Of a DNA stretch of 64,000 bases, positions 11,989 to 16,809 are shown piece by piece. Numbering within the stretch: position 1 is the stretch's first letter; each line of letters begins with the position of its first letter. Position numbers and translations under genes: made by a program. This DNA comes from Methanomassiliicoccus sp. (GTDB lineage: Archaea; Thermoplasmatota; Thermoplasmata; Methanomassiliicoccales; Methanomassiliicoccaceae). Below the pieces are notes generated by a model. It was given only the letters and a program-made list of their open reading frames with translations, had not been told where the DNA came from and made no database searches. Location of the stretch: NCBI GenBank assembly GCA_012719175.1, contig JAAYAX010000008.1, positions 62,001 to 126,000 on the forward strand, written 5' to 3'.

Positions 11989-13446
11989 TTACCCTTTGGC
12001 GATGAGCTTGATCAGACCTGAGGGGCTCCCCTCCACATCCCACTTGCCCATGGGAAGCGTCCAGATCTTGTCCGAGACCTGCTCCAGTCCCCCCGCTGTA
12101 TCATTGTTGACGATGAGTGTGTATATCTTGGAGCTGGTGCGGAGCTTGAAGTCGTTCCACTCGTCTATCAGGACCTCGTTGTTCAGGTTGGACTCTCCGT
12201 CGGTGAAGAGGATGACATCGGCCGCGTGCCATTCCTTCCCCTTGACATTGTCCAGGCCCACGCGCAGGGCGGAGTTGAAGTCGGTGTATCCCTCGAAATG
12301 CCGGACCATGAGGTCCAGAAGGTTCTTGGCCACCTTCTTCTTGTCCGCCAGGTCGATCTCCAGCTTCCAGTCGGAGGCGGCGAACAGAATGACCTTGATG
12401 TTCCTTCCTTCCCGCTCCATGCGCTTGGCCAGCATGAGGATGAACGCCTTGGCCAGTATCTCCGGCTCCCCATACATGGAGCCAGAGGCGTCGATGAGGG
12501 CGATGACCGGCCCCTTCTTCTTTGGCGGCATATTTTCAGGATCGTCCTGCCCCTTGAGCTGATACGTCAGGAGCGCCCCTTCCAGCATCTGAGAGAAGAA
12601 CAGCAGGCGAAGTATGGGGTCCTGCAGCTTGAGCAGTTCCACTGGTAGGACGTGGCGGATGTCCTTTGACAGGCCCAGGTCATAGGCCTCGGTGGTGGTG
12701 AAGCTCTTGGCCTTCTCCTGCTTGGCCCCGTACTCCACGTCCAGTTTGCCCATCAGGTCTATGATGCGCTGTAGGTCCTTCCTCTGACGGAGAAGCTGGG
12801 CCATGCTCTCGATGTTCTGCATGTAGGCCTGGAAGACCTCCTCCACGAAGGTCTCGTCATCGCCGGAGGGAAGCATCTTCTTCATCATCTCCAGCATCTC
12901 CATGTAGCTCTCCATCTGCTCGACCACAATGGTTAGCCGCTCCTTCAACACCGATCCCAGAGAGCCCAGGGCCTCCCCCCGGACGTCTGTCGACTCGAAC
13001 TCCTCCACGCCGCGGGCCAGCATCTCCATGTTGACATCGCTGTGGCGCTGCCAAGCGATCAGGGTGAGGGCCGTCAGGCCCCTGAGGCTCCTCTCCGCCT
13101 CGCTCGATGCCGGCAGGGGGGCCGTCCTGTCCAGGAGGTCAAGGACGACCATCGTGGTGTATCGTAGCGAAAGAGCAGCAAGGATATCGCTCCTGGCGGC
13201 CATGCCCCGGAGCTTCTCCCAATCCTCCGTTCCCTTCAGAGCCTTCAGAACAATGTAGAACGAGCCGTAGCGGGCGGCCTGCCTGCGGACATCTATCACC
13301 GATCTCCGCTCCAGGATCTCCTGCGCCAGTATGGACGCTATCTCCTCCCTGCGTTTCCGTGGTATCATCCTCGGCCGCCCCACCACCAGGCGCACGGAGT
13401 CATCGTTCAGGGCCTTCCGGCAGCGTACGCTGCTCGTTTCCGCCAT
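11989..13446 (-). CDS. ViaA-like VWA-domain protein
   Basis: A 485-residue protein with a helical N-terminal part and a C-terminal von Willebrand A domain. The MIDAS metal site is LIDASGSM (Asp319, Ser321, Ser323), followed by a threonine in GYTDFNSA and an aspartate in LFTDGES. This layout matches ViaA, which works with the MoxR-family AAA+ ATPase RavA. The partner is directly upstream with a 7-base gap. RavA-ViaA has been linked to metal-centre or respiratory complex assembly and stress in bacteria; the archaeal role is unknown. The inverted repeat at 11826-11873 may end this transcript. Confidence 0.85.
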   Translation of the reverse strand: MAETSSVRCRKALNDDSVRLVVGRPRMIPRKRREEIASILAQEILERRSVIDVRRQAARYGSFYIVLKALKGTEDWEKLRGMAARSDILAALSLRYTTMVVLDLLDRTAPLPASSEAERSLRGLTALTLIAWQRHSDVNMEMLARGVEEFESTDVRGEALGSLGSVLKERLTIVVEQMESYMEMLEMMKKMLPSGDDETFVEEVFQAYMQNIESMAQLLRQRKDLQRIIDLMGKLDVEYGAKQEKAKSFTTTEAYDLGLSKDIRHVLPVELLKLQDPILRLLFFSQMLEGALLTYQLKGQDDPENMPPKKKGPVIALIDASGSMYGEPEILAKAFILMLAKRMEREGRNIKVILFAASDWKLEIDLADKKKVAKNLLDLMVRHFEGYTDFNSALRVGLDNVKGKEWHAADVILFTDGESNLNNEVLIDEWNDFKLRTSSKIYTLIVNNDTAGGLEQVSDKIWTLPMGKWDVEGSPSGLIKLIAKG

Positions 13447-13453
13447 GGGGACC

Positions 13454-14872
13454 TCAGGGCTCTACCACGTCCTCCGATAGAACGATCTCCCGCGTCTCGG
13501 AGTGCAGCTTCTTCATCTTGACCATGGCCTTGGTCTTGATGTCATACTGGGCCATGATACCCTCTCGGTCCCTGGGAGTAAGCCAGATGTTATTGTTGAG
13601 TATGTTCACCAGGACCTCTCTCTCCTTGCCCAGGTCCTTCTCGAGGATCCCCAGGTCCTCCTGGAAGTCGGTCAGCTCCTTGATGTACAGCTCCTTGTCC
13701 TGAGGGGAGGCGGTGAGTATGACGGGATGTCCTCTGCTCGCGTACAGCTCGATGAGGTTGGGGAGAAGATGCGGTGACACCTTATGCTTCCACAGCTGGT
13801 AGAGGTTGTCATCGTCCGGGAGCATGTAGGCGTGATCATGAAAGGCGGAGGCGTGCACCTGCAGTCCCTTCCAATTGGAGAACCGTTGCCCGCACGACTT
13901 GCACGTTACGATCTCTGGCAGCTCGAAATCCTTCAACTGCTTGGCGGAATCGTGTAGGTCCTGCAGGTACTGCTGCTCCTTGTCTAGGTTCAGACCTCCT
14001 GCCACGGCCATCTCCACCAGGCGCTTCCCGATGGTCACCTTCTCCTCCGGTCGGTTCCAAAGCATATGCTTCAGAATGGGGAGCATGCTCTTGTCCACAT
14101 TGGAACGGCCGAGGCTGTGGGCGGCCACCTTGAGGACCCCCACCATCTTCTTCCACCTGCGGTCGGAGATGGAGATGCTGGAAGTGCGGAACTCTTTCCG
14201 CAGGGCGACGATGGAGTCCATGACGTCGTTGTCGATGGTGACATCGGCCGATTCCTGCAGCTCCTTCCTGATCTCCTCCACGGTTAGCTGCACCGAGGGC
14301 GTGAAGTTCTCGGAATGCCCCAGGATTATGTCCACGAAATTGGTCTCGTCCTGCACGTATCCTATATAGAAGCGGAACAGGAATCGATCGTACAGCGCCT
14401 CCAGGGACTCGTTCTCCTCCGGCAGCTCGTTGGAGGCCCCGAAGACAGATATGAGGGGCACGTCCAGGATCTCGCATCCGTTGTGATACTTGCGCTCGTT
14501 GAGGATGGTGAGCAGTGAGTTCAGGATGGAGGAGTTGGCCTTGAAGATCTCGTCCAGGAACGATACATGGGCTGTCGGCAGGTATCCCTCGATGTTACGC
14601 CGGAAGATGTCCTCCTGGAGCGAGCTCAGTGACAGGGGCCCGAATATCTCATCAGGGGTGGTGAAGCGGGTGAGCAGGTAGTAGAAGAAATTGCCTTCTT
14701 TGATAGACTTGCACAGCTCCCTGGCGAGCATGCTCTTGGCCGTTCCGGGCGGGCCGATGAACAGTACGTGCTCCCCTGACAGCATCGCCAAAAGGGAGCC
14801 AGCGATCTCCTCGTCGCGTTCCCTAAAATTTTCGTTGAGCTCCTTGCTCAACGTAATGATCCTTGACCTCAT
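13454..14872 (-). CDS. MoxR/RavA-type AAA+ ATPase with an embedded C2H2 zinc finger
   Basis: Walker A GPPGTAKS lies at residues 40-47, Walker B VSFLDEIF at 103-110, and a sensor segment FGASNELP at about 144-151. These make it a MoxR-family ATPase of the RavA branch, predicted to remodel a target together with the ViaA-like protein encoded downstream. After the AAA+ core, residues 324-345 spell a classical C2H2 pattern: Cys324-x2-Cys327-x12-His340-x4-His345, with Phe331 and Leu337 at the usual core positions. Such a finger is not part of the RavA architecture I know. A TATA-like element lies between this gene and the ATT-rich stretch near 14900. Confidence 0.88.
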   Translation of the reverse strand: MRSRIITLSKELNENFRERDEEIAGSLLAMLSGEHVLFIGPPGTAKSMLARELCKSIKEGNFFYYLLTRFTTPDEIFGPLSLSSLQEDIFRRNIEGYLPTAHVSFLDEIFKANSSILNSLLTILNERKYHNGCEILDVPLISVFGASNELPEENESLEALYDRFLFRFYIGYVQDETNFVDIILGHSENFTPSVQLTVEEIRKELQESADVTIDNDVMDSIVALRKEFRTSSISISDRRWKKMVGVLKVAAHSLGRSNVDKSMLPILKHMLWNRPEEKVTIGKRLVEMAVAGGLNLDKEQQYLQDLHDSAKQLKDFELPEIVTCKSCGQRFSNWKGLQVHASAFHDHAYMLPDDDNLYQLWKHKVSPHLLPNLIELYASRGHPVILTASPQDKELYIKELTDFQEDLGILEKDLGKEREVLVNILNNNIWLTPRDREGIMAQYDIKTKAMVKMKKLHSETREIVLSEDVVEP

Positions 14873-14948: not shown

Positions 14949-15914
14949 TCACATCTGGCCTCGGTAAAGTTGTACATCATACGCGCCCTCCGGCCGCCGT
15001 CCTTCGCTCAACATGCGTTGTACGTACTGACCGCAGTTGCTGCCTATCCGGTTCTCCACCTCTTCTCCCAGGCTGAGAATCACCTCGTAGCCCTCGTCAT
15101 AGAGGGCGTTCATCAGGTCCATACAGGTCTCAGGACAGCCGTGCTGCAGCACGGACCTTATGCCATGGTCCATCGATCGTATCGTGGGGTTCAACGGCGT
15201 TAGCTTTATAATGAAGAACTCTGGATCGAAGTGCTCATTCAGCTTTGTGGCATCTATCGGATAGCCGACAAGGGGGGCGAAATTCAGGACCACTTTCCTA
15301 TCAGCATGACGGCGATTATAGAAACGCTCCCCATATTCCGCAATTTGTTCAAAGGTCCAGGTCTCGGCCGGTATGAGGGCCCTCCTCTTCTCAAGGTCCG
15401 TGGTGTGGATGGAGAACTGCAACTGGAACCTGCCATTACGGTACATCTCCTCCTTGATGTGCAGGAGCTTTTCGAAGAAGCCGGAGGCTCGTGCTGGAGC
15501 GATGGTGGACAGTGATACCATCAGTCCAGGAGCGTCGAACCATCCAGGCAGGGCTCTCATGGTTTCAAGGACCGCCGGGTTCATGGACGGTTCGCCCATG
15601 CGCGAGAACTGCACCTTGAACTTCCTGGAAGGTACCCTGCGGTCGGGGTATCTCCTCAACACACATTCATCGATCTGTGCAAGTATCTCCGGGGAGGTCA
15701 GTGGACCGGCGTAGTCACCGCCGGCGTCGCACATCATGCAACCGATGGGGCAGCCGAACATGGATGACACGATTATCACCCACTTTTCCTCCCTTGACAG
15801 GGGGGGCTGAACGGATTCCACGAACTCGACCACAGATCGGGGGTCCTCCCTTCTCATCTGGGCGACGAAGACGCTGGCCAGTGTATCGTTCCCGTAATGT
15901 TCGAGCACGTCCAT
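14949..15914 (-). CDS. RlmN/Cfr-like radical SAM protein
   Basis: Counting from the alternative ATG at 15929, the radical SAM cluster cysteines are Cys60-x3-Cys64-x2-Cys67 (CPIGCMMC). A C-terminal Cys299 in SNCGQY matches the methyl-carrying cysteine (CGQL) of RlmN and Cfr. GEPSMNPAVLETM matches the GEP(x)2N motif of that family. These enzymes methylate adenine 2503 of 23S rRNA or tRNA by a two-cysteine mechanism; the archaeal substrate is not known. I prefer the ATG at 15914, which has GGGAG nine bases upstream; the ATG at 15929 overlaps the flavoprotein gene. It is third in an operon with an isochorismatase-like hydrolase and a flavoprotein. Confidence 0.82.
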   Translation of the reverse strand: MDVLEHYGNDTLASVFVAQMRREDPRSVVEFVESVQPPLSREEKWVIIVSSMFGCPIGCMMCDAGGDYAGPLTSPEILAQIDECVLRRYPDRRVPSRKFKVQFSRMGEPSMNPAVLETMRALPGWFDAPGLMVSLSTIAPARASGFFEKLLHIKEEMYRNGRFQLQFSIHTTDLEKRRALIPAETWTFEQIAEYGERFYNRRHADRKVVLNFAPLVGYPIDATKLNEHFDPEFFIIKLTPLNPTIRSMDHGIRSVLQHGCPETCMDLMNALYDEGYEVILSLGEEVENRIGSNCGQYVQRMLSEGRRPEGAYDVQLYRGQM

Positions 15915-15918
15915 TGTG

Positions 15919-16809
15919 TCAACTCCCATCCACGTATCTTTCGGCCTTCATTGCCGCGCTCATCCCGCTCCCGATGGCTATGCCGACCTGCCGCTCCATC
16001 CCACCCACAAGATCGCCTGCCAGAAATAGTCCGGGGACAGGCGATGGGGAGGGCACAATGGACATCTGGGAGAGGAGCGTTGGGCTCAGTATCTCGACCC
16101 TGGGTTCCCTCCCGCAGGCCAGTAGGACCTTGTCCACTATCATGTGGTCTCCTTGTCCCATATCCAGCACCGTACCGTCCTGGTCTTTTCTCACATTGAC
16201 GATCGGCAAACCATCCACTAGAGGAATGCCTCTCATCCTCGCCCGCTCTCGGAGCAACGGTAAGCACCTGGGTTCAGAACGGCACTGTACGGTCACCTCG
16301 TGGCCTTCCTCCCTCAGCCGTATGGCCTGGTCGAAGGCGGCATCACCGCCACCATAGACAAGGATCCTATCGTGGCCTCCTGCTGCCCTGGACAGCTCGA
16401 AGAGATCGTAGAACGCGGAGATGCCCTCCAGCCCTTTCAGCCCGGGTATGTCGATGGTACGGGGCCTGGTACCTGTGGCCATGATGACCGCGTCCGATTC
16501 GACCGTCCCCTGGGAGGTGGCGATGGTGAAGGTTCGTTCCGTATCGCGGTCGATCCGCTCCACGGAGGCGATGGTGACCTTCCCTCCCACCGATAGTAGG
16601 TGATCATGAATGAGAGACGCCAGCCTATCTCCCCCGATGCCCCCGGGGAATCCTGGATAGTTCTCGATCCAGTACCCATACCTCAACAGCCCCCCGGGAA
16701 CGTTCTTTTCCAACAACAATGGTGCCAGACCAGCGCGTTGGAGGTAGATCCCAGCAGCCATCCCTGCTGGTCCTGCGCCAATGATGGTCACTGCCTGCCT
16801 TCCATCCAA
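15919..16809 (-). CDS. Thioredoxin-reductase-like FAD/NAD(P) oxidoreductase lacking the redox CxxC
   Basis: The FAD motif GAGPAG is at residues 11-16, with LLEKNVPGGLL, ENYPGFPG and ATGTRPR typical of the thioredoxin reductase fold. A second nucleotide motif GGGDAA lies at about 153-158, and the C-terminal FAD motif is LFLAGDLVGG. In true thioredoxin reductase a CxxC precedes the second nucleotide domain; here that stretch reads SAFYDLFELS and has no cysteine. It may therefore pass electrons to a separate protein, such as ferredoxin, rather than a disulfide. The length of 296 residues fits. It overlaps the upstream hydrolase gene by 22 bases. Confidence 0.83.
   Translation of the reverse strand: MDGRQAVTIIGAGPAGMAAGIYLQRAGLAPLLLEKNVPGGLLRYGYWIENYPGFPGGIGGDRLASLIHDHLLSVGGKVTIASVERIDRDTERTFTIATSQGTVESDAVIMATGTRPRTIDIPGLKGLEGISAFYDLFELSRAAGGHDRILVYGGGDAAFDQAIRLREEGHEVTVQCRSEPRCLPLLRERARMRGIPLVDGLPIVNVRKDQDGTVLDMGQGDHMIVDKVLLACGREPRVEILSPTLLSQMSIVPSPSPVPGLFLAGDLVGGMERQVGIAIGSGMSAAMKAERYVDGS

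Follow-up and report, generated by a model that had tools for sequence, protein, structure and literature searches.

The window, which is the whole stretch of 64,000 nucleotides analysed here, comes from an archaeon of the order Methanomassiliicoccales. On its reverse strand it carries a gene for a RavA-type MoxR AAA+ ATPase, whose C-terminal region appears to include a C2H2-type finger, together with a gene for a ViaA-like VWA protein. The features are listed below; residue numbers refer to the ATPase.

11989..13446, (-) strand: gene of the ViaA-like VWA partner (485 amino acids), 7 bases downstream of the ATPase gene
12076..12507, (-) strand: VWA domain of the partner with the MIDAS motif DASGS...T...D (Pfam VWA and VWA_2; sequence)
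13454..14872, (-) strand: gene of the RavA-type MoxR AAA+ ATPase with predicted C2H2-type finger (472 amino acids)
13478..13690, (-) strand: C-terminal helices, residues 395-465 (conservation and predicted helices)
13817..13918, (-) strand: finger module, residues 319-352 (alignment, conservation, and pattern match in 28 copies)
13832..13903, (-) strand: four proposed zinc ligands, Cys324 to His347 (invariant in 28 of 28 copies)
14024..14227, (-) strand: AAA lid, residues 216-283 (Pfam AAA_lid_8)
14342..14857, (-) strand: AAA+ core, residues 6-177 (Pfam bpMoxR and AAA_5; motifs kept in orthologues)

The reading frame of the ATPase starts with ATG, and orthologues from the same genus are colinear with it from residue 1. 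Its AAA+ core contains the Walker A motif GPPGTAKS, the Walker B motif FLDEIF, an SNELPE sensor region, and the stretch LYDRFLFR; the Pfam domains bpMoxR, AAA_5, and AAA_lid_8 are matched with 193, 110, and 64 bits, respectively. Among solved structures, E. coli RavA is the closest (215 bits, residues 3-277), and the next MoxR structure that is not a RavA scores 28 bits. When the family profile is compared with E. coli RavA by hhalign, a probability of 100 is obtained for residues 2-284, across which core and lid are 42% identical; the alignment ends there, just before the arm. The open reading frame with its coordinates, the AAA+/MoxR identity, and the affinity to RavA, all given in an earlier note on this DNA, are borne out, and a MoxR-type lid is present as well. 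The NCBIfam RavA model is matched with 247 bits, far below its cut-off of 681, and, as judged from its sequence, the protein is assigned to the RavA-type MoxR AAA+ ATPases at the subfamily level. The nearest named relative is a 95% identical protein of Methanomassiliicoccus sp. QR_Bin.16, which was also the sole match of a genome-wide scan with the single 472-amino acid protein as query.

The top NCBIfam match of the 485-amino acid VWA protein is ViaA, with 93 bits against a cut-off of 500. Besides lying next to the ATPase gene in the window, a VWA gene adjoins it in 18 of the 20 other loci fetched; one of the two remaining loci lies at a contig end, the other beside an apparent assembly break. 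The pairing with a ViaA-like protein, as previously claimed, is therefore well founded. No gene common to all fetched loci was found besides this partner, and no conserved neighbour other than the VWA gene points to the target of the finger-bearing RavA.

The finger module (residues 319-352, PEIVTCKSCGQRFSNWKGLQVHASAFHDHAYMLP) has the layout P-x4-C324-x2-C327-x3-F331-x5-L337-x2-H340-x6-H347-x-Y349-x2-P352. The proposed ligands are Cys324, Cys327, His340, and His347, corresponding to C-x2-C-x12-H-x6-H; in one genome (G005), the last two are spaced as H-x5-H. The earlier note had named His345 as the fourth ligand, and the letters C324, C327, H340, and H345 are present in the window's protein as it stated. 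Aligning 21 sequences shows no variation at Cys324, Cys327, Phe331, His340, and His347 and either Leu or Met at position 337, whereas column 345 holds Pro in 18 sequences, Ser in one, and His in two, namely in the window's protein and its 95% identical relative. Three of the four ligands consequently stand, while His345 was dismissed. Loss of the ligands from close orthologues, which had been named as grounds for abandoning the idea, applies to this one residue, which is replaced by the invariant His two positions further on, so that the finger survives in corrected form.

All 28 copies, which come from 27 genomes and range down to 29% identity, match the pattern P-x3-5-C-x2-C-x3-F-x5-[LM]-x2-H-x4-6-H-x-[YF]. 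Twenty of the 188 positions of the C-terminal region are invariant; they include the four ligands and no other Cys or His, and by chance all four named positions would be invariant with a probability of about 1e-4, spacing not counted. Outside the fold core, P319 and Y/F349 are kept, as are P345 and P352 in most copies, which suggests a fixed local structure or a contact. Searched against the PDB, the profile of the C-terminal region picks up eukaryotic C2H2 fingers, namely, Aart with an E-value of 1.2e-8 summed over six fingers and, more weakly, CTCF, ADR1, SALL, and others at roughly 1e-2 to 1e-5. With Pfam zf-C2H2, the finger scores 16.3 bits against a curated cut-off of 25.2, so that automatic annotation would not report it, although it is the best C2H2 match within its own genome; the long H-x6-H loop probably costs it score. 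AlphaFold, with an input of two near-identical sequences, gave low-confidence models with a mean pLDDT of 39 for the whole protein and 54 for the C-terminal region. Both models contain a strand-strand-helix (beta-beta-alpha) arrangement at residues 317-343 with a pLDDT of about 50-65 across the finger, while a Foldseek search returned no significant match. Taken together, residues 319-352 are best described as a C2H2-type finger that is predicted to bind zinc. Classical C2H2 fingers (Pfam zf-C2H2) share with it the layout hydrophobic-x-C-x2-C-x3-F-x5-L-x2-H-x6-H and the profile similarity; the RavA finger differs from them in being single, in its H-x6-H spacing and conserved P-x-H-x-Y ending, in its location inside an ATPase arm, and in base-contact positions that are not conserved.

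E. coli RavA (498 amino acids; PDB 3NBX, 6SZA) resembles the window's protein in its AAA+ core and lid, its operon with a VWA protein, and a C-terminal extension past the lid. In this extension, Pfam marks LARA (residues 335-436) and RavA_C (residues 444-497), following the lid at 227-298. In the window's protein, neither LARA_dom nor RavA_C is recognized by Pfam; the lid at 216-283 is followed by the finger (residues 324-347), in LARA's place, and by predicted helices at about 390-465. The finger thus follows the AAA+ module and precedes the C-terminal region, which is where the earlier note had put it in this RavA-type ATPase. The helices at 395-465, which carry invariant L-Y, N-x-W-L, and D-R motifs, are proposed, by position only, to be the counterpart of the C-terminal helical arm of RavA. 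Since a profile comparison with E. coli RavA_C gave no significant sequence match, assignment of the finger to the position of LARA rests on domain order. LARA forms the tip of the RavA arm and binds LdcI (PMC6987120); it also binds lipid and is dispensable for ViaA binding (PMC9489729).

Within the order, some RavA-type proteins lack the finger (G127, G087, G072, and G054). They are about 40-43% identical in the AAA+ module and likewise have a VWA gene downstream, but carry a different, longer insert at the finger's place and form a separate, well-supported branch. Short RavA-type MoxR proteins of other Thermoplasmata (loci L108-L115 and L119-L121), mostly about 380-400 amino acids long, have no arm insert and end in a plain helical tail; those of G556 and G562 are about 42% identical in the AAA+ module. 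The basic form of the family may be such an insert-less protein. If the RavA arm is one with an exchangeable tip (nothing, LARA, other inserts, or a zinc finger), the choice of target would be readable from the insert.

The C-terminal profile was found in 27 of 147 genomes of the order, representing 8 of 30 genera, and in 9 of 390 genomes of a phylum sample, all of them within Methanomassiliicoccales. When a tree is built from the AAA+ module, all finger RavAs cluster as a single clade (one change, support 90/89) with three family-level branches; their origin within the order is single. A mobile or viral origin of the finger region was discarded, as the C-terminal region had no match in the phage, plasmid, and IMG/VR viral-contig collections; bacterial plasmid matches that run into the finger region (Bacteroides, Aeromonas) turned out, upon translation, to be devoid of the finger. 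Two copies are divergent, L065:4474-5940 (+) in G068 and L066:5158-6462 (-) in G089, the latter genome encoding one normal copy in addition. Their Walker A motifs are altered (GPNGAGKD and GPGGTGRG), Walker B has DD instead of DE, and a stretch of the AAA+ core is deleted; the VWA partner is eroded too, which in G068 affects the MIDAS. From their sequences, they look like ATPase-dead copies retained for the arm. The finger and the C-terminal region are kept in both despite the damaged ATPase motifs, which implies that conservation of the finger does not depend on ATP hydrolysis.

Chaperones made up of a MoxR ATPase and a VWA protein are widespread, and few of their targets have been identified. 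MoxR-VWA pairs remodel or load their targets, as exemplified by NorQD (PMC9976466) and by RavA-ViaA with respiratory complexes (PMC3893208), and are often tied to the insertion of metal cofactors (PMC9976466). The RavA-type ATPase of the window would form a hexameric ring and act with the ViaA-like product of the adjacent downstream gene. Its C-terminal arm would bear a compact module built on the zinc-binding C2H2-type finger (Cys324, Cys327, His340, and His347), occupying the place of LARA, which in E. coli RavA binds LdcI and lipid and not ViaA. This module would dock the ATPase-VWA chaperone onto a particular protein partner, and the ring would then remodel the docked partner using ATP, as other MoxR-VWA pairs do in the assembly or loading of metalloenzymes and respiratory complexes. 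The zinc-binding domain of ClpX belongs to another ATPase clade, is N-terminal, does not have the C2H2 beta-beta-alpha fold, and is not a relative of the RavA finger. Yet it works in a like manner, as a small zinc module that serves as docking platform for partners on an AAA+ ring (PMC7226468). A zinc-stabilised, target-docking module on the RavA arm in LARA's stead is therefore our best guess, and we regard docking to a protein as fairly probable, mainly on the strength of analogy and the absence of a conserved base-reading surface. The partner would probably be different from that of E. coli RavA; such a different target for an archaeal version of the RavA-ViaA system, as envisaged earlier, is the natural reading, given that the finger sits where E. 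coli RavA has its target-binding LARA. A search of open-access literature turned up no zinc finger in a published RavA or in any further MoxR protein, and the author of the earlier note likewise knew of no RavA of this kind.

Other readings of the finger have to be weighed against protein docking. A zinc site of purely structural nature, stapling the helical arm without a docking role of its own, is unlikely but deserves attention: the exposed helix face of the finger varies, in contrast to the ligands, F331, and L337, which are kept, and RavA homologues without insert exist, so that the arm itself would be the basic unit. A separate arm module of about 75 residues, in which P319, Y349, and P352 are conserved beyond the core, nonetheless exceeds the need of a staple, and E. 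coli has a target-binding domain at the same place. A somewhat smaller chance is given to binding of DNA or RNA by the finger, by which the ATPase-VWA pair would be brought to a nucleoprotein target. In favour of this reading, the C2H2 finger is a classic nucleic-acid-binding fold, the profile of the C-terminal region resembles DNA-binding fingers, and the spacing C-x2-C-x12-H-x5/6-H is also seen in JAZ-type fingers, which bind double-stranded RNA; against it stand the single finger per chain and the lack of a conserved nucleic-acid gene beside the ATPase-VWA pair. In DNA-binding C2H2 fingers, bases are read by helix positions -1, 2, 3, and 6. Members of the genus have NKGV, AKED, or SKRE at these positions of the RavA finger, and, ranked by variability within the C-terminal region, positions -1, 3, and 6 come at the 67th, 86th, and 74th percentile. 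Such variation even within the genus argues against specific DNA reading, while loose binding to nucleic acid or RNA would be compatible with it. Base-specific reading of DNA by the finger is consequently unlikely, and recruitment to nucleic acid, one of the options of the earlier note, has lost ground as far as it would depend on base reading. Hexamerisation could yield six fingers per ring, which would leave some room for non-specific or RNA binding. Docking of six fingers around the RavA ring on DNA, RNA, or nucleoprotein is a long shot; if true, this would be the first RavA-type system with a nucleoprotein target and not an enzyme or membrane complex.

The Cys/His set might also act as a redox or regulatory sensor for zinc, iron, or another metal, tuning the ATPase in these strict anaerobes. 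Although MoxR-VWA pairs are often linked to metal cofactor insertion (PMC9976466), the pattern suits a stable finger with a hydrophobic core (F331, L337) and not a labile site, and no metal-uptake gene is conserved beside the ATPase-VWA pair; a sensor is deemed very improbable. Practically no weight is left for a chance resemblance without metal, to which the subthreshold Pfam score would lend itself. It was rejected in view of the conservation of the four ligands in 28 of 28 copies, down to the most distant one, and of their being the sole invariant Cys and His residues of the C-terminal region. The four ligands of the finger clade provide a compact, mutable handle by which the target of an archaeal RavA-ViaA system might be sought. 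They constitute a conserved, predicted zinc site that has been missed by automatic annotation because each single sequence falls below the Pfam cut-off.

Several further genes were observed near the ATPase-VWA pair. A gene of about 650 codons for a protein of the hydantoinase/oxoprolinase type lies, divergently oriented, upstream of the ATPase gene in loci L044-L047, L049-L051, L053, and L054. This adjacency is seen for two families of the order but not for the window's own. A functional link with the finger RavA pair is possible, but naming the target from this gene was given up, as it is not adjacent in the window's own family. Neither the ATPase nor the VWA protein was matched by PADLOC, and assignment to a defence system was dropped. 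Downstream of the VWA gene and convergent with it, a gene with CbiA plus GATase_3 domains (cobyrinate a,c-diamide synthase-like) occurs in one genus (L044, L045, L046, and L054). In the window, the gene directly upstream of the ATPase gene (14949-15929, (-) strand) encodes a protein of 326 amino acids for which Pfam gave no match at E 0.001. It contains a CxxxCxxC stretch, FGCPIGCMMCDAG, that is reminiscent of an RlmN-like radical SAM enzyme, and its location next to the ATPase gene is kept only in the 95% identical relative.
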